DNA of 64,000 nucleotides from Polaromonas sp. (GTDB lineage: Bacteria; Pseudomonadota; Gammaproteobacteria; Burkholderiales; Burkholderiaceae_C). The first letter of the stretch is position 1. Every line of letters begins with the position of its first letter. The translations under genes were made by a program, and so were the position numbers. Below, piece after piece: positions 553 through 63,091 of the stretch. Below the pieces are notes generated by a model. The model had not been told where the DNA came from and did not search any database. It saw only the letters and a program-made list of their open reading frames with translations. The stretch lies in NCBI GenBank assembly GCA_028291985.1, contig JAQGNE010000070.1, positions 62,001-126,000 on the forward strand. The letters are read 5' to 3'.

Positions 553-610
553 AAAAGTGGCTGTAGCCCAGGTTATACAAGGGGTATCAGCTATCGATAG
601 CATAGCAAAT
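553..610 (-). repeat. Dispersed ~65-bp palindrome-plus-TGGGCTA element, copy A
   Basis: Read on the minus strand this has the core GCTAT/ATAGC inverted repeat (the palindrome around ATCGAT), then a ACCCCTTGTATA block, then CTGGGCTA and a T-rich tail. The same order of blocks recurs at eight or more other places in the window. It lies between the reductase gene and the TPP riboswitch. A much more degenerate relative, keeping only TTATTGGGCT, may lie at about 440-487. Confidence 0.75.
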
Positions 611-664
611 GCATTCCAGGCCCCGCCCACCCACCATCGCCTACACTTGCCGCTGCGTACCCCG

Positions 665-775
665 GTGCGCGCCCGCTAGGGGTGTTGCCGGTTTGCTCGG
701 CTCGAGCACTGGCGACTGAGAAAGTCCCTTTGAACCTGATTGAGGTAATCCTCGCGCAGGAAAGCACGTAGACGC
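665..775 (+). promoter_or_regulatory. TPP riboswitch (THI element)
   Basis: The stretch holds the THI-box blocks in order: AGGGGTG near 676, CTGAGA at 716-721, CCCTTTGAACCTGAT at 726-740 and GCGCAGGAAAGC near 755-766. These match the conserved thiamine pyrophosphate aptamer. It stands about 60 bases before the transporter gene on the same strand, so thiamine pyrophosphate probably represses that gene. The outer limits of stem P1 are approximate. No clear terminator hairpin was seen between aptamer and start codon, so control may be at translation initiation. Confidence 0.9.
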
Positions 776-831
776 TGTCCGCCGGACCGGCCGCGCCCAA
801 GCCAACCTGCTGTTAACGACTGGATCTGTTA

Positions 832-2151
832 ATGGCCATTAGCCCGATATCGTCTACTGCTGCCGGTATGCAGCTTGTCACCAACGCTGCGTTGGCGCCT
901 TTGCCCGCGTCCAGCCGGACTTTTGACTTCGGCGACCACGCCGCGCTCTGGCTCAGCTTGGGCGTGGGATTGCTGGTGATGCAGATTGGCGCGTATCTGG
1001 TTCCTGCGCTGGGCGCACAGCAGGCGTTGCTGGTGATCGTGGCAGGCTCCGTTCTGGGGGCGGGGCTCCTGGCGTGGACGGCCCGGCTAGGCTGCGCAAG
1101 CGGGCTGTCCAGCGCCGGACTCATGCACGCCACCTACGGCAGCAGCTTCGCGCGCCTGCCGGTGTTGCTGAACATCGTGCAGCTTGTCGGATGGACCACT
1201 TTCGAACTGGTCGTCATGCGGGACGGTACGGTCGCCATCGCACGCCAGTCGGGCGGGTTCGCCCATGCCGCATGGCCAGTGCTTGCCACGCTGCTGTGGG
1301 GCACTGTCCTACTGGCGCTACTGTCGGGGTCCATGGTGACACTGGTTCGCAAATTCATCGGCCGCTTTGGATTGCCGCTGGTCGTTGTTTCGCTGCTGTG
1401 GCTGACCTGGCAGTTTCTGGCGAAGGCCAACAGCCAGGGATTGGCTGTGCTGTGGAGCCGGCCTGGCGCTGGCGGCATGAGCATGTTGTCGGCGCTTGAC
1501 CTGGTGATCGCCATGCCCGTCTCCTGGCTGCCACTGGTTGCAGACTTTGCACGCCATGGGCGCAGCAGCAGCAGCGCGTTCCGGGGAACCTGGCTGGGCT
1601 ACGCCATTGCCAACATCTGGTGCTATAGCCTGGGTGTGCTGGTCGCTACTACAACACCCAGCACCGATCTGGTTGCTGCCCTGCTGCTGGCCCAAGGTGG
1701 CCTGATCGCACTGGGGCTGATTCTGGTTGATGAGGTAGACAACGCCTACGGCGACCTTTACTCGGGCTCGGTGGCGAGCCACAGCCTGAAGCCCTCATGG
1801 AGCATACGGCGCTGGGGCATGTTGATGTGCGTGGTATGCACCTTGCTGGCACTGGTATTGCCGATACACAGTCTCGAGCCGTTTTTGCTGATGCTCAGCT
1901 CGGTGTTCATACCGCTTTACGGTGTGATCCTGGCACGGCTTTCGGGCGCTCGTCCGCAGATGCTGCTGCAACCGGACGCCGGCCGCCAGGTCAATACCAG
2001 CGCAGTGCTGATCTGGGTAGCAGGCATTGCCTGTTATCACCTGATGGCACAGCTGGCGCCCAGCTGGGGAGCGGCCTTGCCAACCCTGGCGCTAACTTTT
2101 GTTGTCGCGCGCCTCACCAGCCGCAGCACTTTCAAGGCCGTCACTGCCTGA
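832..2151 (+). CDS. cytX: Putative hydroxymethylpyrimidine/thiamine-precursor transporter, CytX type (NCS1 family)
   Basis: A 439-residue inner-membrane protein with about 12 hydrophobic segments, related to cytosine permeases. The N-terminal part has the DFGDHAALWLSLGVG block seen in CytX proteins, which import the pyrimidine moiety of thiamine. The TPP riboswitch directly upstream strongly supports a thiamine-related substrate. The ATG at 832 has no good Shine-Dalgarno sequence in front of it. Its last 60 bases overlap the end of convergent thiD, the kinase that would use the imported pyrimidine. Substrate specificity is inferred from the riboswitch and the family. Confidence 0.82.
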   Translation: MAISPISSTAAGMQLVTNAALAPLPASSRTFDFGDHAALWLSLGVGLLVMQIGAYLVPALGAQQALLVIVAGSVLGAGLLAWTARLGCASGLSSAGLMHATYGSSFARLPVLLNIVQLVGWTTFELVVMRDGTVAIARQSGGFAHAAWPVLATLLWGTVLLALLSGSMVTLVRKFIGRFGLPLVVVSLLWLTWQFLAKANSQGLAVLWSRPGAGGMSMLSALDLVIAMPVSWLPLVADFARHGRSSSSAFRGTWLGYAIANIWCYSLGVLVATTTPSTDLVAALLLAQGGLIALGLILVDEVDNAYGDLYSGSVASHSLKPSWSIRRWGMLMCVVCTLLALVLPIHSLEPFLLMLSSVFIPLYGVILARLSGARPQMLLQPDAGRQVNTSAVLIWVAGIACYHLMAQLAPSWGAALPTLALTFVVARLTSRSTFKAVTA

Positions 2152-2997
2152 GGCATCAACAGGCTTCAGCACCATGGGTAACGGGGCGAAGCCGTGGTTG
2201 AGCGGACCGCTGCCCGCGCCAGTGCGAACTGAAGCGCCTGCCCGAAGCGCGCTGCGGATAAAACCACGGGCTGCCTGTACCGCATCAGCCAGTTGGAGTC
2301 CGAGCGCTATGTACGCAGCAATGGCTGACGACAAGGTGCATCCGGTGCCGTGGGTGTTGGCGCTGGCAATGCGGGGCGCGCGCATCCAGACCGCTTGGGT
2401 GCCACGCTGCAGCAGGAGGTCGCTGACTGTGTCGCCCGCCAAGTGGCCCCCCTTGATCAACACGGCCTGCGCGCCCATGGCCAGCAGTTGATGTGCGGCG
2501 CGTTCCATATCCGCTTCACTGGTCATGGGCCGACCAACCAGCAGGCTGGTCTCGTCCAGGTTGGGCGTTACCAGCAGCGCGCGCGAAAAGAGCTTCTGCA
2601 CCAGTTCGGCAATGGCGGGCTGGTCGATCAGCACCGCGCCACTGGTTGCTACCATGACCGGATCGAGCACAACCTTCATGAGCGAGTGGCGGTCTATAGC
2701 GTCCGCAACCGTTTTGACAATTTCCGGCGAATGCAGCATGCCGATCTTGACTGCGTCCACGCCGATATCTTCGACTACCGCATCAATCTGGGCTGCCAGC
2801 ATCTGCGGCGGCAGGCCATGTATTGCGCGCACGCCGGTCGTGTTTTGCGCAGTGACCGCGGTGATGGCTGTCATGCCGTAGCATCCGAGCGCAACAAAGG
2901 TTTTGATATCGGCCTGAATGCCTGCACCGCCGCCGCTGTCCGAGCCTGCAATGCTCAGAACACGTGGATATGCATATTCGAAAGACGGGTTGAGCAT
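2092..2997 (-). CDS. thiD: Hydroxymethylpyrimidine/phosphomethylpyrimidine kinase
   Basis: A 301-residue ribokinase-fold enzyme that phosphorylates HMP and HMP-phosphate to HMP-PP in cytoplasmic thiamine synthesis. Visible hallmarks are SIAGSDSGGGAGIQAD at residues 15-30 and the anion-hole motif HGTGCTLS around 216-223. Length is slightly above the usual ~266-285, through a C-terminal tail. It converges on and overlaps the transporter gene, giving a two-gene thiamine salvage locus. The region upstream of its start carries an array of four palindromic operators (3075-3199), but whether these serve thiD is unknown. Confidence 0.93.
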   Translation of the reverse strand: MLNPSFEYAYPRVLSIAGSDSGGGAGIQADIKTFVALGCYGMTAITAVTAQNTTGVRAIHGLPPQMLAAQIDAVVEDIGVDAVKIGMLHSPEIVKTVADAIDRHSLMKVVLDPVMVATSGAVLIDQPAIAELVQKLFSRALLVTPNLDETSLLVGRPMTSEADMERAAHQLLAMGAQAVLIKGGHLAGDTVSDLLLQRGTQAVWMRAPRIASANTHGTGCTLSSAIAAYIALGLQLADAVQAARGFIRSALRAGASVRTGAGSGPLNHGFAPLPMVLKPVDASGSDGLESAAAGEARDNKS

Positions 2998-3200: not shown

Positions 3201-3253
3201 CTATCTAGAGATGCCATCTGATGCTGCATTTTCAGTTCACTAGGAACCAGACC

Positions 3254-4357: not shown

Positions 4358-4358
4358 A

Positions 4359-6923: not shown

Positions 6924-6999
6924 TGGCTCCTCAACCTGGGCTCGAACCAGGGACCTACGGATTAACAGTCCGGCGCTCTACCAACTGAGCTATTGAGGA
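6924..6999 (-). tRNA. tRNA-Asn (GTT)
   Basis: The minus strand folds as a full cloverleaf: acceptor TCCTCAA pairing with TTGAGGA, D-arm GCTCAGTTGGTAGAGC, anticodon loop CTGTTAA with anticodon GTT, T-arm around GGTTCGAGCC, discriminator G, and an encoded CCA at 6924-6926. It is 76 bases long. A TATAAT -10 box lies on the minus strand at 7012-7017, seven bases before the likely transcript start; the -35 box is poor. Confidence 0.97.
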
Positions 7000-17033: not shown

Positions 17034-17122
17034 GTGAGAAGACTCCTCTTTTCGCTGCCCTCCCCTGCGCACGGTAATGCGCAGGCTCGGCAGGCAATAG
17101 ATTCGTCGGTAAAGGTTAAAGT

Positions 17123-17190
17123 CGATGCTACTGAATCAGTAGCTACCAGCCCACACAACTATTGGGCTAGAGGCCTATTCTGCTTATAAA
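17123..17190 (+). repeat. Dispersed ~65-bp element, copy B
   Basis: The core GCTACTGAATCAGTAGC (perfect 6-bp arms) is followed by ATTGGGCTAGAGGCCTATTC and TGCTTATAAA. It fills the ilvB-ilvH spacer. Its right end overlaps ilvB: the TTA at 17184-17186 inside the element is the ilvB stop codon on the minus strand. Confidence 0.85.
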
Positions 17191-18977
17191 TCTTCTGAAC
17201 CAAGCAACATTTCGTTGATGCCCTTGCCAGCCTGGACCATCGGAAAGACGTTCTCGGTCGGGTCGGTTCGGAAATCCATGAACACGGTTCGGTCTTTCAG
17301 CTTGCGGGCTTCGCGCAACGCAGGCTCTACATCCTGCGGTTTCTCGATCAGCATGCCCACATGGCCATAGGCTTCTGCGAGCTTGACGAAATTCGGCAAC
17401 GCATCCATGTAGCTGCTGCTGTAGCGGCCAGCGTATTCGATTTCCTGCCACTGCCGCACCATGCCGAGATAGCGGTTGTTCAGCGAGACGATCTTGATCG
17501 GCGTGTTGTACTGCAGGCAAGTTGACAGCTCCTGAATGCACATCTGTACCGAGCCCTCACCGGTGACGCAATACACCTCGGCCTCTGGCTTGGCCAGCTT
17601 GATACCCATCGCGTAAGGGATGCCGACGCCCATCGTTCCGAGGCCGCCCGAGTTGATCCAGCGCCGTGGTTCGTCAAACTTGTAGTACTGCGCGGCCCAC
17701 ATCTGGTGCTGGCCGACGTCTGATGTGATGTAGGTGTCGGCATCCTTGGTCATGTTCCAGAGCGTCTCGACCACATATTGCGGCTTGATGACGTCACCCT
17801 TGCCCAGGCTGTATTTCATGCAGTCCCGCTTGCGCCACGCATCCACAGTTTCCCACCAGCCACCCAATGCGCTGGCATCAGGCTTAAGGCCGGATTCCCT
17901 GATCATGCTGATCAGTTCGGTCAATACGTCTTTCACGTCGCCAACGATCGGAATGTCAACCTTGACCCGTTTTGAAATGCTCGACGGGTCGATATCGATA
18001 TGGATGATCTTGCGTTCGTTCTGTGCAAAATGCTTGGGGTTGCCGATGACACGGTCATCAAAACGCGCACCCACAGCCAGCAGCACGTCGCAGTTTTGCA
18101 TCGCATTGTTCGCCTCAAGCGTGCCGTGCATGCCCAGCATTCCCAGAAATTTGGCATCGCTGGCAGGATAGGCGCCAAGCCCCATCAGGGTGCTGGTGCA
18201 GGGGTAGCCCAGCATGTCCACCAGCGTGCGCAGCTCTTGCGACGCATTGCTGAGCAGAACGCCGCCACCCGTATAGATATAGGGCCGCTTGGCCGACATC
18301 AGCAACTGCAGCGCCTTGCGAATCTGCCCGCCGTGACCCTTGCGCACGGGGTTGTATGAGCGCATTTCGACGCTCTGCGGATAGCCTGCGTAATGCGTCT
18401 TGTTGAAAGACACGTCCTTAGGTATGTCCACAACCACCGGGCCCGGACGGCCACTGCGTGCGATGTGAAAAGCTTTTTTCAGCGTGTCGGCCATATGCCG
18501 GACGTCTTTGACCAGAAAATTATGTTTGACGATAGGCCGGGTGATGCCCACTGTGTCGCATTCCTGAAAAGCGTCCAGTCCGATCGCATGGGTCGGAACC
18601 TGCCCGGTGATGATGACCATCGGGATGCTATCCATGTAGGCAGTTGCAATACCTGTAATCGCATTGGTCACGCCAGGGCCGGAAGTGACCAGCGCGACGC
18701 CAACGTCACCCGTGGCGCGTGCATAGCCATCAGCCGCATGTACAGCAGCCTGCTCATGGCGCACCAGCACATGCTGAATCGTGTCCTGCTTGTAGAAAGC
18801 ATCGTAGATATGAAGCACCGCACCGCCGGGATAACCCCAGATGTACTTGACCTGTTCGGCCTGAAGGCACTTGACCAGAATTTCAGCGCCGCGCAGATCC
18901 TGCGCGTCCGATGCTGATGTCATTGAGCTGGCGGACGCAGTTGCCGCGGAAGCGATTTCCGCTTTGGAGATTTCCAT
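17184..18977 (-). CDS. ilvB: Acetolactate synthase, large (catalytic) subunit
   Basis: A 597-residue ThDP- and FAD-dependent enzyme forming acetolactate and acetohydroxybutyrate. It shows the catalytic glutamate in VRHEQAAVHAADGYAR (about residue 73-88), the FAD region, the ThDP/Mg site beginning TSDVGQHQMWAAQYY and a GEGSVQMCIQEL block. The N-terminus carries an extra low-complexity Ala/Ser stretch of about 25 residues before ILVKCLQAE, longer than in E. coli. The stop codon lies inside a dispersed repeat. First gene of ilvB-ilvH-ilvC. Confidence 0.96.
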   Translation of the reverse strand: MEISKAEIASAATASASSMTSASDAQDLRGAEILVKCLQAEQVKYIWGYPGGAVLHIYDAFYKQDTIQHVLVRHEQAAVHAADGYARATGDVGVALVTSGPGVTNAITGIATAYMDSIPMVIITGQVPTHAIGLDAFQECDTVGITRPIVKHNFLVKDVRHMADTLKKAFHIARSGRPGPVVVDIPKDVSFNKTHYAGYPQSVEMRSYNPVRKGHGGQIRKALQLLMSAKRPYIYTGGGVLLSNASQELRTLVDMLGYPCTSTLMGLGAYPASDAKFLGMLGMHGTLEANNAMQNCDVLLAVGARFDDRVIGNPKHFAQNERKIIHIDIDPSSISKRVKVDIPIVGDVKDVLTELISMIRESGLKPDASALGGWWETVDAWRKRDCMKYSLGKGDVIKPQYVVETLWNMTKDADTYITSDVGQHQMWAAQYYKFDEPRRWINSGGLGTMGVGIPYAMGIKLAKPEAEVYCVTGEGSVQMCIQELSTCLQYNTPIKIVSLNNRYLGMVRQWQEIEYAGRYSSSYMDALPNFVKLAEAYGHVGMLIEKPQDVEPALREARKLKDRTVFMDFRTDPTENVFPMVQAGKGINEMLLGSEDL

Positions 18978-21211: not shown

Positions 21212-21280
21212 CGCTTTTGCATCAAAAGCGGTGGGTAGCCCAATAAATAAAAGCAGAGATTGCTTCTAAATTGATAGTAA
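21212..21280 (-). repeat. Dispersed ~65-bp element, copy C
   Basis: On the minus strand: CTATCAATTTAGAAGC core, then TGCTTTTATTTATTGGGCTA and a CGCTTTTGATGCAAAAG tail. It lies directly before the RDD gene, and the TTG at 21271 that could serve as that gene's start is inside it. Confidence 0.75.
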
Positions 21281-21807
21281 ATCCAGACCCTGTTCCTTCC
21301 ATCCCCAGGCGAATGGCCTGCTGGATGTATGAGGGCCTGCTGATGTTCGGCGTGGTTTTCATTACCGGATACCTTTTTGGCACCTTAAGCCAGACGCGGC
21401 ACGCGCTCGACAACCGCCACGCCCTGCAGGCCTTTGTTTTTGTGGTGTTCGGCATTTACTTTGCCTGGTTCTGGGCCAAAGGTCAGACGCTTGCCATGAA
21501 AACCTGGAACATCAGGGTAGTCGGTCTTGACGGCAGGGCGATCAGCCAGAAACGGGCACTTCTGCGTTATGTGCTGAGCTGGTTGTGGTTTCTGCCGCCC
21601 TTGGGCGCCAGCTGGTTGTTCGACCTGAGCGGCGCGGAAGGCGGCGTCCTGACGATGGGCTGGGTAGCGGTGTGGGCGGTCCTGGCCCGGTTCCATCCGC
21701 AGCGGCAGTTCTGGCACGACGCCCTGGCCGGCACGCGGCTCGTGACCTGGGTTGCGCCGGAAGGCCCAAAACGCGCTGCCCGCATGGCTGGAAACCGCAA
21801 GGCCTGA
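21271..21807 (+). CDS. RDD family membrane protein
   Basis: A protein of up to 178 residues with three to four transmembrane segments and the RDD wording PRRMACWMYEGLLMFGVVF near the start and GQTLAMKTWNIRVVGLDGR in the middle. The start is uncertain: TTG 21271 lies inside a dispersed repeat, while ATG 21313 gives 164 residues beginning at the conserved RDD helix. Function of the family is poorly known (small-molecule or ion transport has been proposed). Confidence 0.82.
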   Translation: MIVNPDPVPSIPRRMACWMYEGLLMFGVVFITGYLFGTLSQTRHALDNRHALQAFVFVVFGIYFAWFWAKGQTLAMKTWNIRVVGLDGRAISQKRALLRYVLSWLWFLPPLGASWLFDLSGAEGGVLTMGWVAVWAVLARFHPQRQFWHDALAGTRLVTWVAPEGPKRAARMAGNRKA

Positions 21808-22949: not shown

Positions 22950-24656
22950 TCAGGCCCTGAACCGGCTAGTGATAGGGTAGCGCCAGTCCTTGCCAAAACT
23001 GCGGTGCGTGACGCGAATGCCGACCGGCGACTGGCGCCGCTTGTATTCGTTGATCTTGATGAGACGGGTGACACGCTCCACCACCGCCGCATCAAAACCG
23101 GCTGCCACGATGGTGGCTATGCTCTGGTCGTTTTCCATGTAGCGCTCCAGAATCGCGTCCAGCACCTCGTAGGGCGGCAGGCTGTCCTGGTCCGTCTGGT
23201 CGGCGCGCAGCTCGGCGCTCGGCGGGCGTGTGATGATGCGCTCGGGAATCGGCTGGCTGCCAGTGCCGTACGGATCATTCAGGTTACGCCAGCGCACCAG
23301 CTCGAACACCGTCGTCTTGAGCAGGTCCTTGATGACCGCAAAGCCGCCTGCCATGTCCCCATACAGCGTGCAATAACCGGTGGCCATCTCGCTTTTGTTG
23401 CCGGTCGTCAGCACGATGGAGCCGAACTTGTTTGACAGCGCCATCAGCAGCACGCCGCGGATGCGCGCCTGTATGTTTTCCTCGGTGGTGTCTTCCGGCA
23501 GTCCGGCAAATTCCCTGCTGAGCGACGCCTTGAAGGCGTTGAATTGCGGCACGATAGAAATTTCGTCATAGCGCACCTTCAGCCGCTCGGCCATGTCGCG
23601 CGCATCCAGCCAGGAGATGTCAGCCGTGTAGGGCGACGGCATCATGACAGCGCGCACATTGTCGGCGCCGAGCGCATCCACCGCTATCGCCAGCACCAGG
23701 GCCGAGTCAATGCCGCCCGACAAGCCCAGAATGGCACCTGGAAAACCGTTTTTGCCCAGGTAGTCGCGTACACCCAGCACCAGCGCGTCCCACAGATCAG
23801 CTTCAGGTGCGCGCTCAGGTTCGGTTTTTGCTGCTATTTCGATAGCTGCCCGCCCTTTATTTATCTGGGCTAGAAACAGATTTTCCTTGAAACTTTCGGC
23901 GCGGCCAGCCACCGATCCATCGGCCTGCAGCGCAAACGAGCAACCTTCGAAAACAATCTCATCCTGACCGCCGACCAGATGCGCGTAAACCAGCGGCAGA
24001 CCGGTGGCCAGCACGCGCATGCGCATCATCTGCTCGCGCTCGCCGTGCTTGCCCACATGAAACGGCGACGCGTTGATCACCACCAGCAGTTCGGCGCCTG
24101 CCTCTTTGGCCAGCCGGCCAGGCTCTTCAAACCAGGCGTCCTCGCAGATGAGCAGCCCGATGCTGACCGCATCAGCGCCCTCGCCCGCCTGAAAAACGCA
24201 GATGCCTTGACCCGGCGTGAAGTAGCGGCGCTCGTCAAACACCTGGTAATTGGGCAGCTCGCGCTTGGCATACGTGTCGATGACCTGGCCTTCGCGCAGC
24301 ACACGGGCGGCGTTGTGGCGCTGTTGCACCGATATGCTTTTGGTGCGCACCCCGTGCACTGCTTCGTCACCGGGGCTGCTATTGCCGCGCGTCGGTGTGC
24401 CCACCACCGCCGTCAGGCCTTTCAGGTCAGCCAGCTCGCGGGCCACCAGATTCACGGCATCATCACAGGCCTGGATGAACGATGAGCGCAGGAACAGGTC
24501 TTCAGCCGCGTAACCGCAAATCGCAAGCTCAGGCGTGACGAGCAGCCTGCAGCCGTCTGCATAGGCACTGCGGGCAGCGTCGATGATTTTCTGCGCGTTC
24601 CCCCGCATGTCGCCCACGCAGTAGTTCAATTGGGCAATGCAGATTTTGAGTGACAT
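22950..24656 (-). CDS. nadE: Glutamine-dependent NAD+ synthetase
   Basis: A 568-residue two-domain enzyme. The N-terminal nitrilase-type glutaminase has E43 (TPELAICGY), K131 (TYAKRELPNY) and C171 (LLICEDAW); the C-terminal synthetase has the P-loop LSGGIDSAL at 312-320. It amidates deamido-NAD using glutamine. The interdomain linker, about residues 257-278, is encoded by a copy of the dispersed repeat (23825-23889) that keeps the frame open. The divergent next gene begins within 25 bases of its start. Confidence 0.96.
   Translation of the reverse strand: MSLKICIAQLNYCVGDMRGNAQKIIDAARSAYADGCRLLVTPELAICGYAAEDLFLRSSFIQACDDAVNLVARELADLKGLTAVVGTPTRGNSSPGDEAVHGVRTKSISVQQRHNAARVLREGQVIDTYAKRELPNYQVFDERRYFTPGQGICVFQAGEGADAVSIGLLICEDAWFEEPGRLAKEAGAELLVVINASPFHVGKHGEREQMMRMRVLATGLPLVYAHLVGGQDEIVFEGCSFALQADGSVAGRAESFKENLFLAQINKGRAAIEIAAKTEPERAPEADLWDALVLGVRDYLGKNGFPGAILGLSGGIDSALVLAIAVDALGADNVRAVMMPSPYTADISWLDARDMAERLKVRYDEISIVPQFNAFKASLSREFAGLPEDTTEENIQARIRGVLLMALSNKFGSIVLTTGNKSEMATGYCTLYGDMAGGFAVIKDLLKTTVFELVRWRNLNDPYGTGSQPIPERIITRPPSAELRADQTDQDSLPPYEVLDAILERYMENDQSIATIVAAGFDAAVVERVTRLIKINEYKRRQSPVGIRVTHRSFGKDWRYPITSRFRA
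23825..23889 (+). repeat. Dispersed ~65-bp element, copy D (inside nadE)
   Basis: TTTTTGCTGCTATTTCGATA followed by GC, then CCCTTTATTTATCTGGGCTA and a GATTTTCCTTGAAA tail. It is wholly within nadE and is translated on the opposite strand as about 22 residues around FKENLFLAQINKGRAAIEIA, in the linker between glutaminase and synthetase domains. Confidence 0.85.
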
Positions 24657-24680
24657 GGATTGAATTCAGGCCAAAAAAAC

Positions 24681-26087
24681 GTGAAAAAAAGCTCAAACGA
24701 TTATGTCATCCGCATCCTCGACAGTCCGGTGGATATTGGCGCTGCCGAGTGGAACGCGCTGCTGGCAACGCAGGGATGCGATGGGATTTTTAACCCCTTC
24801 ATGCGGCATGAGTATCTGGCCGCACTGCACCTGAGCGGCAGTGCCACGCCCAAGACCGGCTGGACGCCCCGTTTTGTGACCTTGTGGCACGGCAAGGCGC
24901 TGGCCGGAGCCTGCGCGCTGTATATCAAGACGCATTCTTATGGCGAGTATGTCTTTGACCATGCCTGGGCCCATGCCTATGAACGGCATGGCGTGCCCTA
25001 CTACCCCAAGGCGCTGGTGGCCTCGCCCTTTACCCCGGTGCCCGGTGCGCGATTGCTGGCGCGCAATGCTGACGAACGCCTGCTGCTCATCAAGTCGCTG
25101 GTGGCCTGGTGTGACGAACAAAAGCTGTCGTCGCTGCACCTTCTGTTTGCCGATGCGCAGGACACCGCAGCCTGTGAAGAAGCGGGCCTGATGCTGCGGC
25201 ACACGGTTCAGTTTCACTGGACCGACCGACTCCCCTCCCCGGGTGCTTCGAATGCTGCAGTACTGGCGGGCGAAAGTGTTGACGCCGCCTCAGCCTTGAA
25301 TCTGCCGGCTGCTACGCATGCGACCGAAGACACGCAGGTTACAGAATCCAGCGGCTTTGCCGATTTCGACGACTTCCTGCAATCGCTCAGCCAGGAAAAA
25401 CGCAAGAAGATCCGACAGGAAAGGCGCAAGGTCGCCGAAGCGGGTGTCACCTTCCGCTGGTCCCTGGGCCGCGATATCAGCAACGCCGACTGGGACTTTT
25501 TCTACAGCTGCTATGAGCGTACCTATTTCGAGCACGGCAACGCACCCTACCTGAGCCGCGATTTTTTCCAGCGCATGCAGGACACCATGCCCGAGAACTG
25601 GCTCATGTTTGTGGCCGAATATGCCTCTGGCGCCGTGTCAGCGCCTGTCGAACCGGTGGCCATTGCCACCAGCCTGGTAGCCATCAGCGCAGCACCTGAC
25701 GTAACTGCAGGCACAAGAGCATCCCCGGCGGCCGATGCCGTCGATGGCCAAACGACCCCCTTGCCATTGGCCGCACAGCTGGCCGGCCAGGTCGCCTACG
25801 GCCGCTACTGGGGCGCCGTCGCCCGGGTCGACTGCCTGCATTTTGAAGCCTGCTATTACCAGCCGCTGGAGTGGTGCATCGCGCACGGCCTGCAGCGTTT
25901 TGAAGGCGGCGCGCAGGGCGAGCACAAGATGGCGCGGGCGCTGCTACCCGTCAAGACATCCAGTGCGCATTGGCTCGCGCATCCGTCGTTTGCCGATGCG
26001 GTCGAGCGTTTTCTGGAACGTGAAGGCGAAGGCATCGATCACTACATGGACCATCTGGAACGGCGCAACCCATTCAGGCGCAGCTGA
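24681..26087 (+). CDS. FemAB-like / GNAT-fold protein (PF04339, 'peptidoglycan biosynthesis/recognition' family)
   Basis: A protein of about 468 residues. The N-terminal part (FNPFMRHEYLAALHLSGSA) and the later blocks KRKKIRQERRKVAEAGVTF, DWDFFYSCYERTYFEHGNAPYLSRDFF and the C-terminal HLYMDHLERRNPF-like ending are typical of PF04339, whose members resemble FemAB acyltransferases. Two extra Ala/Pro-rich inserts (about 195-225 and 330-370) make it longer than usual. GTG 24681 is chosen; TTG 24660 in the same frame is possible. It is divergent from nadE. Confidence 0.75.
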   Translation: MKKSSNDYVIRILDSPVDIGAAEWNALLATQGCDGIFNPFMRHEYLAALHLSGSATPKTGWTPRFVTLWHGKALAGACALYIKTHSYGEYVFDHAWAHAYERHGVPYYPKALVASPFTPVPGARLLARNADERLLLIKSLVAWCDEQKLSSLHLLFADAQDTAACEEAGLMLRHTVQFHWTDRLPSPGASNAAVLAGESVDAASALNLPAATHATEDTQVTESSGFADFDDFLQSLSQEKRKKIRQERRKVAEAGVTFRWSLGRDISNADWDFFYSCYERTYFEHGNAPYLSRDFFQRMQDTMPENWLMFVAEYASGAVSAPVEPVAIATSLVAISAAPDVTAGTRASPAADAVDGQTTPLPLAAQLAGQVAYGRYWGAVARVDCLHFEACYYQPLEWCIAHGLQRFEGGAQGEHKMARALLPVKTSSAHWLAHPSFADAVERFLEREGEGIDHYMDHLERRNPFRRS

Positions 26088-26135: not shown

Positions 26136-26203
26136 TTTTGCTATATTTTGTATAGCTATCATCCCTTTTACTATCTGGGCTGTAACCACTTTTTACTATA
26201 AAC
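26136..26203 (+). repeat. Dispersed ~65-bp element, copy E
   Basis: TTTTGCTATATTTTGTATAG then CTATCATCCCTTTTACTATC and TGGGCTGTAACC with a T-rich tail. It occupies the spacer between the FemAB-like gene and the next gene. The core arms GCTATA/TATAGC are perfect. Confidence 0.85.
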
Positions 26204-27141: not shown

Positions 27142-27575
27142 CGCAGTTCGACTGGGCCGGCCTTGCCCGGTATCCGACTTCGCATCGATGCGTGGCAGGG
27201 GTCTGCGCGCTGGCCGTTATCCAGCCGCACCAATGCTTCGTGCTATGTTTGATATAGCTGACTTTGGCATCGTTGGGGGCGACAAGGCGCTGCCACATGC
27301 GGCCGACCTGGCCGGCGCCATTGAGGCCGCTTTCCAGGAGGCAAAAACCCTGCTGGCAGTGGCGGCTCCAGGCACCGGTATGGCTACGGCCGTCTCTGTG
27401 GACACCACCAAGCCGTTTGCCACGACAACCACCCAGAAGCTAGCCGGCAAAGCGACTCAGGGTAATGGAGCAGTTGCATTAGGCAAGCCTCTCTCACGCA
27501 AGCTCATCAGCAAGGCTGATACTGAACTTCGACTTCCCAGCACCCGACAAACCAGGCCCACTCCAACAGCATCCG
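27142..27575. other. Intergenic region with a partial repeat copy
   Basis: A 167-residue plus-strand ORF (27188-27691) crosses this stretch but is Thr/Ala/Pro-rich, has no recognisable motif and runs into the next gene in another frame, so it is not called. A partial dispersed-repeat core GCTATGTTTGATATAGC lies at 27242-27258 (copy F, right half poorly kept). Confidence 0.45.
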
Positions 27576-34380: not shown

Positions 34381-34450
34381 ATCTTTTGCTATACTTTAAA
34401 TAGCTATAACCCCTGGTAGAACCTGGGCTAGCGCACTAAAAATCTTAAAT
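34381..34450 (+). repeat. Dispersed ~65-bp element, copy G
   Basis: TTTTGCTATACTTTAAATAG then CTATAACCCCTGGTAGAACC and TGGGCTAGCGCAC with a CTTAAATTTT tail. It lies in the spacer before ppa (minus strand). The first 17 bases are nearly identical to copy J inside dnaX. Confidence 0.85.
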
Positions 34451-34486
34451 TTTCATTCTCAGGCCACCTGACGGGCCGCGCGTCGC

Positions 34487-35026
34487 TCAGGAGGGGTTGG
34501 CCGCCAGGTAATTGGCCACGCCGTCAGAAATTTCCTTCTTGGCAGCTTCCGGGCCTTCCCAGCCGTTGATCTTGACCCACTTGCCTTCCTCAAGGTCCTT
34601 GTAGTGCTCGAAAAAGTGAGAGATTGTCTTCAGGCGCAGGGGGTTCATGTCTTCCGGCTTTTGCCACTGGGTATAAAGCGAGCATTTCTTGTCGATGGGC
34701 ACGGCCAGCACTTTGCCATCTTCACCTGCCTCGTCGGTCATCTTTAAGATGCCGATCACACGGCAGGTGACCACCACGCCAGACATCAGGGGCACCGGTG
34801 TAATCACCAGCACATCAACCGGGTCGCCGTCACCACTGAGCGTTTTAGGCACATAGCCATAGTTGGTGGGGTAGTGCATCGATGTGCTCATAAAGCGGTC
34901 GACAAATATGGCGCCCGATTCCTTGTCCACCTCGTACTTCACCGGGTCTGCATTCATCGGAATTTCGATGATGACGTTAAAGGACTCGGGGTAGTTTTTT
35001 CCGGGAGAAACTTTATCAAGAGACAT
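34487..35026 (-). CDS. ppa: Inorganic pyrophosphatase, family I (soluble)
   Basis: A 179-residue enzyme hydrolysing pyrophosphate in the cytoplasm. The signature DGDPVDVLV with its metal-binding aspartates is at about 67-75, preceded by [15 protein letters not shown]; later VKINGWEG is typical. It is divergent from the membrane pyrophosphatase gene across a 363-base spacer. Confidence 0.97.
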
Positions 35027-45299: not shown

Positions 45300-46664
45300 G
45301 TGAAAACACTTGAACAAATTGCCGCGCAACTGGAAGGTTACGACCCGAATGCGCTGCCTGCCAGCGATGCGCTTGCGTTTCTATCGCTTCTGGTTGTGCC
45401 GGTGCGCGACGTCCAGCAGGTGCCCCTGCTGGAGGCCCTGGGCCGGGTACTGGCAGCAGACATCATCTCGCCTGTCGATGTGCCGCCGCATGACAACTCG
45501 GCCATGGACGGTTTTGCTTTTGACAGCCGCCAGCTGGTGGCCGGGCAGGCGCTCAGGCTGAGAAGCACCGGGACCGCGCTGGCTGGCCAGGCGTGGCGTG
45601 GTCATGCAGGCATGGGTGATTGCGTGAAGATCATGACCGGTGCGATCATGCCTGCCGGACTCGACACCGTGGTGCCGCAAGAATTCGTCACCGTTGATGG
45701 CGACAGCATCGTGATTCCATCGGGTTTGCTTCAGCCTGGCGACAACCGCCGGCTGCGCGGGGAAGACCTTGCCACCGGCAAGCCCGCGCTATTCAAAGGT
45801 GAGCTGGTGACCCCTGCACGCCTGGGACTGGCGGCCTCCTTGGGCCTTGCTTCCCTCCCTGTGTTACGCCGTCTTCGTGTGGCCTACTTCTCGACCGGCG
45901 ATGAAATTTTGTCACTGGGAGAGCCGCCACGGGAAGGCGCGGTGTATGACAGCAACCGCTACACCGTTTTCGGCATGCTGACGCGCATGGGTTGTGAGGT
46001 GATTGACATGGGTGTGGTGCGCGACGACCCTGCTCTGCTGGAGGCAGCCTTTCTTGATGCGGCCACGCGGGCCGATGCGGTCATTACCTCGGGCGGCGTC
46101 AGCGTTGGCGAGGCAGACCACACCAAGGCCATGATGAAGAAGCTGGGCGACGTTGCCTTCTGGCGCATCGCCATGCGACCCGGGCGGCCCATGGCTGTTG
46201 GGCGCATCATGTCCGCCAAATTATGCATCAAATCGGCCTCCAGCCCAGCAGATACCAAGAGTATCAGCTATCTTAGTGATAGCATTTATCTGCAGAGCAG
46301 CAACGCCAATGGGGCCATCCTCTTCGGACTGCCGGGCAATCCGGTGGCGGTCATGGTCACGTTTCTGGCCTTTGTACGCCCGGCCCTGCTGCAGATGATG
46401 GGCGCGATTCCGGTGCCTCAGCCGTTGCTCAAGGCAACCAGCCTGGAAGACATTCGTAAAAAACCGGGGCGAACCGAATACCAGCGCTGCCATGTATCGA
46501 CCAGCAGCAGCGGCGCGCTACAGGTCAAAACCACCGGCAGCCAGGGGTCTGGCGTCTTGCGCTCAATGGCCGAGGCGAACGGGCTGATGGTGCTGCATCA
46601 CAGCCAGGGCAATGTGGCCGTCGGAGGCGAGGTTGACGTGCTGATGTTTGACGGGTGCATATAG
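45300..46664 (+). CDS. moeA: Molybdopterin molybdotransferase
   Basis: A 454-residue enzyme inserting molybdate into adenylated molybdopterin. It shows VDVPPHDNSAMDGFA, the central YDSNRYTVFGML/TSGGVSVGEADHTK blocks and FGLPGNPVAVMVTF. A GTG at 45300 is used. Between MAVGRI and GAILFGLPGNP there is an extra stretch, residues ~308-332, encoded by a dispersed repeat copy (46221-46294) that stays in frame; normal MoeA has only a short loop here. The loop is near the active-site region, so the enzyme's activity deserves a check. Confidence 0.93.
   Translation: MKTLEQIAAQLEGYDPNALPASDALAFLSLLVVPVRDVQQVPLLEALGRVLAADIISPVDVPPHDNSAMDGFAFDSRQLVAGQALRLRSTGTALAGQAWRGHAGMGDCVKIMTGAIMPAGLDTVVPQEFVTVDGDSIVIPSGLLQPGDNRRLRGEDLATGKPALFKGELVTPARLGLAASLGLASLPVLRRLRVAYFSTGDEILSLGEPPREGAVYDSNRYTVFGMLTRMGCEVIDMGVVRDDPALLEAAFLDAATRADAVITSGGVSVGEADHTKAMMKKLGDVAFWRIAMRPGRPMAVGRIMSAKLCIKSASSPADTKSISYLSDSIYLQSSNANGAILFGLPGNPVAVMVTFLAFVRPALLQMMGAIPVPQPLLKATSLEDIRKKPGRTEYQRCHVSTSSSGALQVKTTGSQGSGVLRSMAEANGLMVLHHSQGNVAVGGEVDVLMFDGCI
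46221..46294 (-). repeat. Dispersed ~65-bp element, copy H (inside moeA)
   Basis: On the minus strand: GCTATCACTAAGATAGC core, then ACTCTTGGTATCTGCTGGGC followed by TGGAGGCCGATTTGATGCAT. It lies within moeA and is translated as a stretch containing KSASSPADTKSISYLSDSIY. Relative to copies D and J it is read in a different frame. Confidence 0.85.
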
Positions 46665-53122: not shown

Positions 53123-53896
53123 ATGTTGACATTGATACCCCTGCCCGCCTTTACCGACAATTATCTGTGGGTGCTGCATGACGGCATGCATGCGCTGGTA
53201 GTAGATCCCGGCGATGCAGCGCCTGTGCTTCGCTGGCTTCAGGAAAACGCGCTGCAGTTGCAAACGATTTTAGTCACGCACCATCATGCGGACCATACCG
53301 GCGGCGTTAACGAACTGCGTGAAGCAACAGGTGCACAGGTGTTTGGTCCGGCGCGCGAAAACATTCCCCCGCCGTTGACGGCGCTACAGGAAGACGATGT
53401 GGTCGAGACCTTGGGCCTGACGTTCAAGGTGTTGGAAGTGGCGGGTCATACCGCCGGCCACATCGCCTTTTTATGCGGCGATGTGGCCGGCCGCCCGCTG
53501 CTGTTTTGCGGCGACACGCTGTTCTCGGGCGGATGCGGGCGCCTTTTTGAAGGAACGCCCGGCCAGATGCTGGACTCGCTGGACAAACTGGCCGCACTGC
53601 CGCCCGACACCCAGGTTTGCTGCGCTCATGAATACACACTGGCCAATCTGCGTTTCGCCACAGCGGTCGAGCCTGGCAATGCTGACCTGACAGCCTACGA
53701 GACGCAGTGCGTAAAATTGCGCGCTGCCGGGCTGCCAACCCTGCCGACCTCGATAGCGCAGGAAATGCTGGTCAACCCATTTCTGCGCACGCGCACGGCA
53801 CCGGTCAGGGCAGCGGCGCTGCGCGTCGATCCTTCAGCGCTGGACGACGTTTCTGTATTCACCGCTATCAGGCAATGGAAAAACCAGTTCAAATGA
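53123..53896 (+). CDS. gloB: Hydroxyacylglutathione hydrolase (glyoxalase II)
   Basis: A 257-residue metallo-beta-lactamase-fold enzyme completing methylglyoxal detoxification. The metal motif THHHADHTGG (~52-61), GHTAGHIAF, CGDTLFSGGCGRLFEG and CAHEYTLANLRFA are diagnostic. ATG 53123 is only 12 bases from the start of the divergent methyltransferase gene. The stop overlaps the start of mltD (ATGA). Confidence 0.96.
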   Translation: MLTLIPLPAFTDNYLWVLHDGMHALVVDPGDAAPVLRWLQENALQLQTILVTHHHADHTGGVNELREATGAQVFGPARENIPPPLTALQEDDVVETLGLTFKVLEVAGHTAGHIAFLCGDVAGRPLLFCGDTLFSGGCGRLFEGTPGQMLDSLDKLAALPPDTQVCCAHEYTLANLRFATAVEPGNADLTAYETQCVKLRAAGLPTLPTSIAQEMLVNPFLRTRTAPVRAAALRVDPSALDDVSVFTAIRQWKNQFK

Positions 53897-55533
53897 TTTC
53901 ATCAAAAGCCCTGAGCAGCAACCCAACTCCAGTTGACCCCTTCCCTGCCCCTGCATTCACGCGCCTCCCTCTGATGGCCCTCCTGACCTGGATGCGATTG
54001 CGCATCGCGTCACTCGCCGTGGGCGTTGTGGTTCTTGCAGGCTGCGCAGGCCCCACCAAAGATGGCAGCGCAACGCTGCCTGCGGACCCAGTGCTGACAA
54101 CGCAGTCTGCGGCTGGCAAGACCGTGCCGACGGTGGTTGACCCCTTGTTTCCTGCAGGGCCGCTGCAAACCATCACGCCGGGCGACATACCTTCGCGGCC
54201 GATTTCGTCTACGGTTCCGCCGAAAGAATTGTGGGAACGTATTCGCATGGGCTTTGCGATGCCCGATCTGCAAAGCGAACTCGTCACCGACCGTGAGCAG
54301 TGGTATGCGAGTCGTCCTGACTATATTCAGCGCATGACCGAGCGCTCCAGCAAATATCTTTTTCATATTGTTGAAGAGCTCGAACGCCGCCAGATGCCGA
54401 CCGAGCTTGCGCTGCTTCCATATATCGAAAGTGCCTTCAACCCGCAGGCAGTGTCAAGCGCAAAGGCTGCCGGCATGTGGCAGTTCATGCCGGCCACCGG
54501 CAAAGACTTTGACCTGAAGCAAAACGCATTTCGGGATGACCGGCGGGATGTACTGGCATCAACGCGGGCCGCGCTGGATTACCTGCAAAAGCTTTATGGC
54601 ATGTTCGGCGACTGGCATCTGGCGCTGGCCGCCTACAACTGGGGTGAAGGCAGTGTTGCGCGAGCCATCGCGCGCAACCAGAAGCTTGGCTTGGGCACCG
54701 GTTACCTTGACCTGACCATGCCAGCTGAGACACGGCTTTACGTGCCCAAGCTGCAGGCCGTCAAGAATATCGTGGCCAACCCGATGGGCTTTCGTACCGA
54801 GTTGCCGCTGATCGAGAACCATCCTTACTTCCAGCAGGTCAGAATCACCCGCGACATCGATGTGACCCTTGCGGCAAAACTTGCCGACGTGAAGCTTGAG
54901 GACTTCAAGGCGCTCAACCCGTCGGCGCATCGTCCGGTGATATTGGCATCTGGCACACCCCAAATTCTTCTGCCCTGGGACAACGCGGTGGTGTTTCAGC
55001 GAAATTTTGACGCGTACACCCAAGGCCAGTACGCCAGCTGGACCGCCTGGACCGCGCCGTCCACCATGCCGGTTTCGGATGCCGCCAGGCGTGTGGGCAT
55101 GAGCGAGAACGACCTGCGCGCGATCAACAATATCCCGCCGCGCATGCTGATCCGGGGCGGCTCGACCCTGCTGGTGCCACGCAGCGCCAAGAGCGACGCC
55201 GATGTGACCGGCAACGTGGCCGACAATGCGCAAATTCTGCTGGCGCCAGAAATCGTCACCCGCCGCACAACGGTGAAGGCACGCAAGGGCGAAACGGTGG
55301 CCACACTGGCCCGCCGGTACGGCCTGAGCGCCAGTAGCGTCGCCGAATGGAACAGCGTCGGCGCTTCAAGCGCTTTCAAGATCGGGCATGCTGTGGTGCT
55401 TTTTCTGCCGGTGAAGCAAGCCAGAAGCGTTTCACGTGCAGCGGTGCGGCCCGCTGTCAAGTCGGCTGGCGGCAAGGTCACGGCTGTCAAACGCAGCAGC
55501 AGCCGAAGCGTGGTGAAGTCGAAAAAACGATAA
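53893..55533 (+). CDS. mltD: Membrane-bound lytic murein transglycosylase D
   Basis: A 546-residue (or ~519 from ATG 53974) lipoprotein. Signal LAVGVVVLAGCAGP has the lipobox LAGC. The SLT domain has the catalytic glutamate in PYIESAFNPQA (~178) and AKAAGMWQFMPATG; two LysM domains lie at ~389-435 and ~459-509 and a basic Ser/Lys-rich tail follows. It cleaves glycan strands with formation of 1,6-anhydro ends. ATG 53893 overlaps the gloB stop. Confidence 0.9.
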   Translation: MISSKALSSNPTPVDPFPAPAFTRLPLMALLTWMRLRIASLAVGVVVLAGCAGPTKDGSATLPADPVLTTQSAAGKTVPTVVDPLFPAGPLQTITPGDIPSRPISSTVPPKELWERIRMGFAMPDLQSELVTDREQWYASRPDYIQRMTERSSKYLFHIVEELERRQMPTELALLPYIESAFNPQAVSSAKAAGMWQFMPATGKDFDLKQNAFRDDRRDVLASTRAALDYLQKLYGMFGDWHLALAAYNWGEGSVARAIARNQKLGLGTGYLDLTMPAETRLYVPKLQAVKNIVANPMGFRTELPLIENHPYFQQVRITRDIDVTLAAKLADVKLEDFKALNPSAHRPVILASGTPQILLPWDNAVVFQRNFDAYTQGQYASWTAWTAPSTMPVSDAARRVGMSENDLRAINNIPPRMLIRGGSTLLVPRSAKSDADVTGNVADNAQILLAPEIVTRRTTVKARKGETVATLARRYGLSASSVAEWNSVGASSAFKIGHAVVLFLPVKQARSVSRAAVRPAVKSAGGKVTAVKRSSSRSVVKSKKR

Positions 55534-55670
55534 GCCGGAAATGGCAGCTGAGCGCGGGCCTGCAGCAAATATCAAGCCGCTCGCAGCTGGCTATCTGCAG
55601 CTCGCAGCATCGGGAGCCGTTTGCACTGGTGCCGGTGCCGCGTCATCACGGCGCATCTGTGACCGTAAAT

Positions 55671-55736
55671 TTAAGTCAAATCAGCCGGTAGCCCAAATAA
55701 ATCGAGGCTCGTCCGCTATCATTTAAGTAGCAATCC
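55671..55736 (-). repeat. Dispersed ~65-bp element, copy I
   Basis: On the minus strand: GCTACTTAAATGATAGC core, then CTCGATTTATTTGGGCTACC and GGCTGATTTGACTTAAA. It lies in the 284-base spacer between mltD and the DUF3096 gene, with no other feature there. Confidence 0.8.
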
Positions 55737-60547: not shown

Positions 60548-60636
60548 GGCTTAAAGATGCGTCAGCAAGCCGGGCGGTACGGCAGGAATAGCGCGCACAA
60601 CGTCGGAAGGCTCAAAAGCTTTGTACCACGGTATGT

Positions 60637-60969
60637 TCAAAATGGAAGTTTCATGCCACCTGGCAGGCCCGGCATGCCAGCGGTCAGTTTGCCCATCTTT
60701 TCCTGGCTCAGGTCTTCAGCCTTGCGCACCGCCGCATTGAAAGCGGCCGCCACCAGGTCTTCCAGCATGTCCTTGTCGTCAGCCAGCAGGCTGGGGTCGA
60801 TCTCGATGCGCTTCACATCATGCTTGCAGGTCATCGTGACCTTGACCAGGCCGTTGCCGGACTCGGCAGTCACCTCGATGAAGGCCAGCTCGTCCTGCGC
60901 CTTCTTCAGGTTGTCCTGCATGGTCTGCGCCTGCTTCATCAGGCCCGCCAGTTGTCCTTTGTTGAACAT
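60637..60969 (-). CDS. ebfC: YbaB/EbfC nucleoid-associated protein
   Basis: A 110-residue dimeric DNA-binding protein: [20 protein letters not shown] with a coiled N-terminal helix, [17 protein letters not shown] in the middle, and a Gly/Pro/Met-rich end. It lies between dnaX and recR, as in most proteobacteria. Confidence 0.95.
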
Positions 60970-61060
60970 GGTGTTGCTTTCTAAATGGTTCTGAAAAGGG
61001 TGTTCGGGGCCGGCATCGCAGCCCCAGGGAAAGTCTTGCCGCGCTGGTCTGGCGCCCTGC

Positions 61061-63091
61061 TCACGGGCTGCCGCGCGACTGTGGTTTCACGCTGCCATCA
61101 AGTATAGGTTTGATGCCGCCGGGAGCGAGCCGGGCACCCCAGTTTTGCATCAGGTGCTGCACCAGCGGGTCTTTCTCAACCGTTTCCTCGGCATGCCGCT
61201 GCCGCTCCTGCTGGGCTGCAGCGTTGCGGCGAGCCGGTGTATCGGTTACCGCCCCGACTTCAACCTTCAAGGTGACTGGCGGTTCCGCAGGCCGCAGGGA
61301 TTGCAGGGCAGTCTGCAGTTTCTGGCAGGCGGAAGGCTGGTTCAGGGACTGGCGCTCTACACGCAGCAGCCATTGCGCCCCGTCCTGTGCGCACAGTTGC
61401 GACTGCAGCGCCAGCTCGCGCACCATGGCCGCAATAAGCTCGGCAGCCATCAGCTGACGCACGAGAGAACTCCAGGTATCGCCCAGTTCAGCAAGCCCGG
61501 CATCGGCCACAAGCGGCTCATCATGGCCGCCCGGAGGTATGTCGGCATCCAGGTCATCAGCAGCTACTTGAGTGTTCGGTTGACCCGCATCGGCCAGACC
61601 GCCCGAATATTTCAAGGGCTCAGCATCCATAGGCATTGCGGCAGGCGTTTTAGTCGAAATCGCCGGCACATCCCCCAGTGCCGGAGACGCGGCATCCATC
61701 CAGGGCGGCGGGACGGCTGCGGCGCTGTCGATGACCGCCGCAGTTGCGGCCGGGCTGGCAGCGACTGGCGCGGCTGCTGGCGGCGAAAGCTGTTTTGCTA
61801 TACTTTCAGTAGCGACAACCCTTTGTATTTGCTGGGCTACGGGCCTATTTTGCTTAAAATCATCGGCTGCTGCACGCGCCGGTTCAGGCAAGGGCTTTTT
61901 TGCAGGCTCGGCGGCACTCCTGGCCTGCATGGCCATGGAAGGTGCAGGTGCAGAAAGCGTCGTGGTAACCGCCGGCTTGAAAGCCAGCAATCGGAGCAAT
62001 ACCATCGTCAACGCTGCATATTCGTCGGGCGCGAGACCGAGTTCGCCCCGACCGTGCAGGCAAAGGCTGTAGAGGAGCTGGGTTTCGTCGGCAGGCATCA
62101 GCTGCGCCAGCCGGGCGGTTTCCGAAGCCTCGGGATCCGCGTCATCGCTTGCGTTACCGGACGCTGGGGCCAGCATGTCAGGCACTGCCTGCAGAACCGC
62201 CATACGCTGCAGGACCGTTGTCATTTCTTCAAGCGTGGACCCAGCGCTCAGGCCATGCAGGCGCAGAGCTTCGGAGGTCTCCACAACCGTTTTTCCATCG
62301 CCCCGCGCCAGTGCATCAAGCAGCCTGAAGACATAGCTGCGGTCAACACTGCCCAGCATCAGCCGCACGCTGGCTTCCAGCAGCTCTCCGGAGCCGAAAG
62401 CTATCGCCTGATCGGTCAATGACAGCGCATCGCGCATCGACCCGCGGGCCGCCCGTGCCAGCAAGCGAAGTGCCTGCGGCTCGGCGGGGACGCTTTCAAC
62501 CGCCAGCACCTGCTTCAGGTGCTCCATGACGGTTTCGGGTGCCATGGGGCGGAGGTTGAACTGCAGGCAACGCGACAGGACCGTGGCAGGCACCTTCTGC
62601 GGATCGGTGGTGGCCAGGACAAACTTAAGGTATTCCGGCGGCTCTTCTAGCGTCTTGAGCATGGCGTTGAAAGCCGTGTTCGTGAGCATGTGGACCTCAT
62701 CAATCATGAAGACCTTGAACCGCCCCACCACCGGCTTGTAGACCGCTTGCTCGAGCAACTGCGCAATTTCATCCACGCCGCGGTTGGAGGCGGCGTCGAG
62801 CTCGGTGTAGTCAACGAAACGGCCGCTGTCGATATCGGTGCAGGCCTGACACACGCCGCAGGGCGCTGCCGTGATGCCGCCCTGCCCGTCAATGCCCACG
62901 CAGTTGAGTGATTTGGCAAGAATGCGCGATATCGTCGTCTTGCCTACACCGCGCGTTCCGGTAAACAGGTACGCATGGTGCAAACGCTGCGTCGTCAAGG
63001 CGTTACCCAGAGCCTGCACCACATGCGACTGGCCCACCATTTCAGCGAAATTTCGAGGGCGGTATTTGCGGGCTAGGACAAGGTAGGACAT
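61061..63091 (-). CDS. dnaX: DNA polymerase III subunits tau (and possibly gamma)
   Basis: A 676-residue clamp-loader ATPase. Walker A GTRGVGKT at 45-52, zinc-binding cysteines in [32 protein letters not shown] and [11 protein letters not shown] are clear. Residues ~365 on are the tau-specific linker and C-terminal domain. At codons 397-399 (61903-61895) the sequence GCA AAA AAG forms an A-AAA-AAG heptamer; a -1 shift would end after GCC CTT GCC TGA, giving a ~402-residue gamma-like protein. A dispersed repeat encodes residues ~411-434. Confidence 0.96.
61790..61860 (+). repeat. Dispersed ~65-bp element, copy J (inside dnaX)
   Basis: TTTTGCTATACTTTCAGTAG then CGACAACCCTTTGTATTTGC and TGGGCTACGGGCCTATTTTG. 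It lies in dnaX in the tau linker and is translated on the opposite strand as a run with [19 protein letters not shown], the same frame as in nadE. It starts 34 bases downstream (in dnaX sense) of the slippery heptamer. Confidence 0.88.
61895..61921 (-). promoter_or_regulatory. Possible -1 ribosomal frameshift site in dnaX
   Basis: In dnaX sense an AGGAG (61921-61917) lies 15 bases before A-AAA-AAG (61901-61895). The heptamer is in the zero frame as GCA AAA AAG, identical to that of E. coli dnaX. In the -1 frame a TGA comes after three codons. A weak CGGC/GCCG stem follows about 13 bases downstream. Confidence 0.55.

Follow-up and report, generated by a model that had tools for sequence, protein, structure and literature searches.

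A long composite palindromic motif, repeated hundreds of times and spelled by rare codons in core genes, as a candidate genome-wide DNA signal in Polaromonas

A repeated element with a unit of 67 nt occurs nine times in a 64,000-nt stretch of Polaromonas sp. DNA (the window; contig JAQGNE010000070.1 of assembly GCA_028291985.1, positions 62,001 to 126,000). It is a repeated, phased DNA motif under nucleotide-level constraint in coding sequence, and depending on lineage it is present in hundreds of copies or nearly absent. On balance, the element is probably a genome-wide, sequence-specific signal in double-stranded chromosomal DNA with a candidate protein reader, and by analogy it is best read as most like an uptake signal sequence (USS), albeit a much longer one. 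If so, a large group of environmental bacteria would carry a signal powerful enough to determine the synonymous codons of rarA, nadE, and femAB, and it would represent either a self-DNA uptake system or a chromosome-organising site of a new kind. It would also caution that a high-copy “palindromic repeat” need not be a mobile element.

The proposed signal would consist of a 17-bp dyad (GCTAY-N7-RTAGC), a weaker left arm, a strong right arm ((T)GGGCTA), and an (A)GGC block followed by an A/T-run tail. Across 101 copies from the 3.58-Mb genome that includes the window, the strongest positions are GCTAY (4-8), RTAGC(T) (16-21), and (T)GGGCTA (40-46), with further conservation at A-N-CCC (25-29), AGGC (48-51), a TTT or AAA run (55-57), and an A-rich end. 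By where conservation stops the unit is 67-68 nt long, and outside the model ends there is only weak signal, at positions -1, +1, +8, and +14. The gap between TAGC and GGGCT is exactly 20 nt in 83 of the 86 copies in which it can be measured (it cannot in 15 of the 101). The loop of the palindrome, originally given as 5 or 6 nt, is 7 nt, CTA and TAGC being separated by 9 nt in 88 of the 101 copies. This phasing would place the centres of the dyad and the right arm about 31 bp apart, or three helical turns.

All nine positions named in the original prediction hold the element, at 54.1-74.5 bits in a model search of the window, although this recovery is partly circular since the model was built from the same nine copies; the runner-up match in the window scores 13.6 bits (E 0.95). 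A strict pattern matches three places in the window and none in 100 shuffles. Two lesser copies that it listed fall away: the partial copy at 27242 is the palindrome GCTATGTTTGATATAGC alone, and the degenerate copy near 440 scores a non-significant 12.5 bits (E 1.8, model search). The expectation of a very numerous element in both orientations is borne out genome-wide. In the genome of the window, a core pattern allowing one mismatch matches 340 places (177 and 163 by strand) against 2 (1 and 1) for a reversed control, and two other genomes (G159 and G095) give 390 against 1 and 533 against 0, an over-representation of the kind that marks USS and DNA uptake sequences (DUS). The profile search that had been suggested finds at least 150 places in the same genome with 150 of 1154 candidates scored, at least 141 of them beyond the nine, and the element is also present in relatives.

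The decisive comparison is between orthologs from genomes with and without the motif. Of the 19 positive genomes, 17 have a rarA site of 108 nt, as do all 10 negatives, over the same conserved protein stretch (rarA was read in 29 of 30 genomes and not found in one); in two Polaromonas genomes the site is 117 nt. The full dyad is found in 14 of the 19 positives and in 1 of 10 negatives, and the model matches the site (E up to 1) in 15 of 19 positives and 1 of 11 negatives. The negative is in both cases G128, which is negative by model and yet has 20 pattern matches, and is thereby shown to be a motif genome. With correction for codon usage, by a score chosen after the data had been seen, the Ala of the motif is the most anomalous of 438 columns in the positives (GCT in 17 of 18, background 0.07), whereas in the negatives the 14 top columns include none from the motif.

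For nadE, 80 orthologs were compared, the best among 586 relatives. Whether or not they carry the motif, 75 of the 80 have a spacing of 102 nt across the site; it is 105 nt in 4 and 168 nt in 1. The model matches the site (E up to 0.1) in 45 of the 80 loci, and GCT is used there in 32 of 34 independent positives, chosen by matches elsewhere in the locus, against 15 of 29 others and a background of 262 of 3133, with 17 of the 80 loci not read. The single 168-nt site, in a metagenome-assembled genome (L108), possibly holds a second element or a remnant. At rarA and nadE, the element stands over native coding sequence without added length and is spelled by rare codons.

In femAB, the native stretch IATSLIA is mostly spelled ATT GCT A.. 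AGT TTG ATA GCT. Among 43 positives, defined as loci with another match elsewhere in the locus, 38 use ATA for Ile and 38 use GCT for Ala. Elsewhere in the gene, by comparison, ATA accounts for 31 of 364 Ile codons and GCT for 193 of 2266 Ala codons. Where the locus has no other match (26 loci), ATA occurs in 7 and GCT in 9. The gene was read in the window and in 70 of 80 loci, and the codon counts come from 69 of these, one being without an anchor. The “others” in both the femAB and nadE comparisons are not clean negatives and include motif genomes without a second match in the locus. The femAB gene of the window’s own genome has no dyad. Codon and synonymous-divergence (dS) analyses in these genera would need the sites masked.

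The element is distributed by lineage. Among 61 Polaromonas genomes, 35 have at least 10 pattern matches, 22 have at most 1, and 4 lie between; G032, from the Polaromonas draw, has 2. Low counts can mean another dialect, as the counting pattern represents only one (GGGCTA, one mismatch). Model matches are found in 48 of 160 genomes of the GTDB family (43 of 141 genera), while in an order-wide draw of 120 genomes only 2 match, both from the same family. The right arm differs between genomes (GGGCTA in the window’s genome, CCGGCTA in G091, AAGCGCTA in G145, TGCGCTA in G046) while the dyad is kept, although the search pattern itself fixes the dyad in this comparison. Individual positions appear to persist in part: 6 of 40 copies in G159 adjoin the same genes as one of the 101 sampled copies (counted by reading, with 8 pairs listed, two of which rest on short matches), and as full conservation of the 340 pattern copies would give about 12, perhaps half of the copy positions persist between the two genomes. 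In three equal-length copy pairs, one of them in moeA, 14-17 of 18 core bases agree, a figure biased upward as the model had selected the two members of each pair. In two Polaromonas species, a pair of copies separated by about 600 bp occupies the same place (L009:1501 and 2100; L325:398 and 1001). The strict pattern, which represents a single dialect, is absent from all viral contigs of the collection, taken whatever their hosts.

The reader of such a signal would be a protein or machine that some lineages of the family possess and others lack or have lost, with loss of the reader letting sites decay, and copies would accumulate by a biased process that keeps favouring better matches at each site. 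The specific driver may be molecular drive by sequence-biased DNA uptake and recombination, a tentative choice that, among known drivers, would account for sites built in place, for dialects, and for the presence or absence of the element by lineage. A close second, nearly as good, is a DNA-binding protein that organises the chromosome and whose sites are kept by direct selection. Uptake systems offer the nearest likeness. According to excerpts of two accounts, USS of the Pasteurellaceae and DUS of the Neisseriaceae resemble the element in having hundreds of copies, in both orientations and in intergenic and coding DNA (PMC7811141, PMC3630211), and also in in-place base changes (for the element, at some sites), lineage dialects, and whole-genome presence or absence. 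In the same excerpts, USS evolve by point mutation rather than through insertion of whole elements, and drive can make them accumulate (PMC7811141), while DUS come in lineage dialects (PMC3630211). Origin by base change is seen at rarA and nadE and partly at femAB, and is contradicted at moeA. It is conceivable, if somewhat doubtful, that Polaromonas and its relatives have a third, independently evolved self-DNA uptake system, with genus dialects and a long composite signal of a dyad and a phased second site, that arose largely through codon substitution in core genes and is lost along with its reader.

Several observations weigh against reading the element as a signal of this type, and they concern the motif itself, the history of single sites, and base pairing. 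Known uptake signals are much shorter than the motif: USS and DUS have a core of 9-12 bp at about 1 per kb, whereas the element is a composite of 43-67 bp at about 1 per 10 kb, a density ten times below the ~1,000-bp spacing of USS. Point mutation by itself would have difficulty in assembling a motif of about 50 bits. The element also differs from USS and DUS in having gained length at some sites and in belonging to a different bacterial family. Many positive genomes of the family have only 3-50 pattern matches, which is partly a matter of dialect. Uncorrected synonymous identity in rarA is not higher in the motif (0.49) than outside it (0.565); this plain measure was dropped for rarA, having failed because GC-rich preferred codons are shared throughout.

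At two sites, length was gained. The moeA loop measures 66-123 nt (156 and 237 nt with a second repeat) in 33 genomes, typically 72 nt with the element, against 3-48 nt in 17. Long loops go with at least 10 pattern matches in 31 of the 33 genomes and short loops with at most 3 in 16 of the 17 (the exception is G025, with 67), figures that are not rates as 20 moeA stretches were picked largely for a gap in the search. The femAB loop is about 30 nt longer in many positives, mostly 63-75 nt against 27-42 nt in many negatives, and some negatives have loops of 63-69 nt without the motif, as if eroded. As moeA and femAB gained length, motif DNA was therefore also inserted or copied. In four femAB loci (L082, L083, L093, L105), the loop is 69 nt as in motif genomes with no motif left, and looks eroded. 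The moeA loop of three loci (L139, L187, L188) contains a second, GC-rich GGGGGGCAGCGAACCACACGAAGTGGGGAGCGTGGGGG-like repeat in frame, once in tandem, that may be the Beta-proteobacterial repeat element (BRE).

The length gains are what would be expected of a mobile palindromic repeat that inserts into intergenic DNA and, in frame, into genes and is mobilised in trans, possibly by a REP-associated tyrosine transposase (RAYT), with the constraint reflecting the needs of the mobiliser. Repeats of this general type include repetitive extragenic palindromic (REP) sequences, miniature inverted-repeat transposable elements (MITEs), and Rickettsia palindromic elements (RPEs), and the original prediction had likened the element to a MITE or a palindromic element. 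We consider a mobile repeat unlikely. Comparison of orthologous sites, as had been proposed, reveals added length at moeA and femAB, which lends the MITE likeness some weak support, and none at rarA (17 of 19 positives) and nadE (75 of 80 orthologs). The plain MITE reading fails at rarA and nadE because no length was added and rare codons spell the motif, and the likeness is further diminished by hardly conserved pairing and by the copies inside genes. No clear terminal inverted repeats are found at the consensus ends (judged by eye, with no count made), and the predicted absence of target duplications holds: of the 101 copies, 28 have one at 3 nt against 32.8 in shuffled sequence and none has one at 6 nt, at or below the shuffled level throughout.

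REP sequences and bacterial interspersed mosaic elements (BIMEs) with their RAYT have high copy number, palindromic parts, and a preference for gene 3′ ends. The element shares these traits and is accompanied in most genomes by a Y1_Tnp gene, but differs in having hardly any covariation, a longer unit, and a Y1_Tnp gene that does not track copy number in the genus. A Y1_Tnp match is found in 60 of 61 Polaromonas genomes, including every one of the 22 that have no more than 1 pattern match, and 34 of the 35 with at least 10; the only one without is G011 (79 percent complete), which has 21 pattern matches. Within the family, Y1_Tnp is commoner in motif-positive genomes (43 of 48) than in the others (77 of 112; p 0.005), although five motif-positive genomes have no match, three of which (G080, G155, G201) are 99-100 percent complete. 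A Y1_Tnp match is not always a RAYT, and some are strong IS200-type matches. The single RAYT-like gene of the window’s genome (L031:1275-2163; Y1_Tnp, below the NCBIfam RAYT cut-off) is preceded, at a distance of about 120 nt, by a copy of the element, a placement that a mobile repeat would accommodate, as it would the slight pairing excess described below. RAYT loci in general are not enriched in the element (7 matches in 31 loci of 98 kb), and RAYT as the cognate transposase was rejected on this ground and because its presence does not track the element within Polaromonas.

RPEs resemble the element in being short and in frame inside housekeeping genes, according to an excerpt of a review (PMC10969869), and 15 of the 101 copies lie inside genes by a rough codon-score script. 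RPEs are inserted and measure ~150 bp, whereas the element is without insertion at rarA and nadE and has added length at moeA. The same excerpt cites a MITE from Polaromonas JS666 (Mattes 2008; PMC10969869). No description of the element was found among the papers listed by the literature searches, in which the JS666 MITE is known by citation only.

The palindromic parts raise the question of RNA structure. At facing positions 8 and 16, the 101 copies have TA (53), CA (29), TG (10), CG (7), and two others, approximately the product of the base frequencies, and 13 of 14 tested pairs are uncoupled in the 96 copies used for the test. This near-independence of facing bases suggests that the unit is conserved as duplex DNA, and the palindromic parts, on balance, resemble half-sites in such DNA. 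In the other direction, pair 26/38 is coupled (p 0.0075; 96 copies), and five whole-structure measures all exceed shuffles, 1-3 of 500 of which reach them on an alignment fitted by the model; 7 pairs are changed on both sides against 3.1 in shuffles, and pairing is 84.7 percent against 83.4 percent. Other sets (25 of 32 matches from G145, 10 of 41 from G185, and 23 from G064 (9) and G202 (14)) were picked by a pattern that fixes most tested bases and carry little information beyond the 5/13 pair. A hairpin or RNA structure was not favoured, given a slight excess on a structure-fitted alignment and coupling at 1 of 14 pairs. A role in RNA at gene 3′ ends, whether in termination on both strands, in stabilising mRNA, or as an RNase site, is improbable. 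The slight pairing excess and the many intergenic copies shortly past stop codons, with convergent pairs enriched, would suit such a role, but there is almost no pair-level coupling in the window’s genome, copies occur inside rarA, nadE, dnaX, and other genes, mostly antisense, and no Rfam family falls on a window copy. Rfam matches in the window are to ilvH, tRNA, and signal recognition particle (SRP) RNA only, and near 11 other loci there are 4 matches, all sub-threshold.

The copies prefer gene 3′ ends, and their position relative to genes bears on a further alternative, in which the element is the binding site of a chromosome-organising or nucleoid-associated protein, with hundreds of sites under direct selection unlinked to uptake. 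Chromosomal sites of this kind that are kept by direct selection include the FtsK-orienting polar sequences (KOPS), matS, and parS. We regard this as a possible though not a probable explanation. The composite dyad, which has its second site at a fixed distance and half-sites that are nearly independent of each other, is in keeping with it, and so is the placement at gene 3′ ends and between convergent genes: of 86 copies outside genes, 83 could be classed, with 32 between convergent, 43 between codirectional, and 8 between divergent gene pairs. The ratio of 32 to 8 (p 0.0002) is a real bias because convergent and divergent pairs are about equal in number in a circular genome. Selection at each of hundreds of sites would, however, need to prevail over the codon usage of essential genes. 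In G159, moreover, with 150 scored copies of ~390 and the origin assumed at base 1, there is no replichore strand bias (Fisher p 0.14-0.62), and spacing is ordinary (coefficient of variation of gaps 0.90 against 0.99 +/- 0.08 for random placement). A replichore polarity that the listed G159 places seemed by eye to have was rejected when all 150 scored copies were considered.

Copies inside genes tend to be antisense. Beyond the window, in-gene copies named by eye lie in truB, rarA, gluQ, rsmB, an mltB-like gene, and a uvrD-like gene. The gene caller by codon score placed the dnaX copy on the wrong strand; with this corrected 13 of the 15 in-gene copies are antisense to the gene (p 0.007), and 12 of 15 as scripted (p 0.035). 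Of the three frames in which the dyad could be read, one contains a TAG stop, which leaves two possible readings.

The Beta-proteobacterial repeat element (Hot et al. 2011) is a very improbable identity for the element, even though the two share host families and are mostly intergenic with some copies within coding sequences. An excerpt of its description reports BRE from Bordetella, Polaromonas JS666, Rhodoferax, Delftia, and others, at 75-91 bp and 63.7-78.9 percent GC in Bordetella, often in tandem, and most numerous in JS666 (29) (PMC3110155). The element differs in length (67 nt), in tandem arrangement, and in GC content, which is 30-48 percent in 100 of 101 matches and 54 percent in one weak match, as compared with the description of BRE.

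Three of the nine window copies lie in frame inside protein genes (nadE, moeA, dnaX), and one more overlaps a gene 3′ end. Their coordinates are given below together with the RNA genes of the window.

Table 1. Copies of the element and RNA features in the window (genes named by Pfam/NCBIfam; positions numbered from the first nucleotide of the window)
Feature	Position	Strand	Context	Score (bits)
Copy 1	543-609	-	Intergenic	66.4
Copy 2	17124-17190	+	Over 3′ end of acetolactate synthase gene (17184-18977, minus; stop 17184-17186)	60.4
Copy 3	21215-21281	-	Intergenic	54.1
Copy 4	23827-23892	+	In frame within nadE (NAD+ synthase; 22950-24656, minus), reads SFKENLFLAQINKGRAAIEIAAK	65.4
Copy 5	26137-26202	+	49 nt past stop of FemAB-like gene (24660-26087)	64.0
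Half element	27242-27258	+	Palindrome GCTAT-N7-ATAGC, first half only; not a copy by model	
Copy 6	34385-34451	+	35 nt from 3′ end of inorganic pyrophosphatase gene (34487-35026, minus)	62.0
Copy 7	46220-46286	-	In frame within moeA (45300-46664, plus), reads KLCIKSASSPADTKSISYLSDSIY, loop preceding GAILFGLPGNP	58.9
Copy 8	55668-55734	-	134 nt past stop of lytic transglycosylase gene (53707-55533)	59.1
Copy 9	61794-61860	+	In frame within dnaX (tau/gamma; 61061-63091, minus), residues 411-433	74.5
tRNA	6927-6999	-		
ilvH RNA (RF02993)	17040-17107	-	Directly beside copy 2	
Small SRP RNA gene (RF00169)	63676-63772	+

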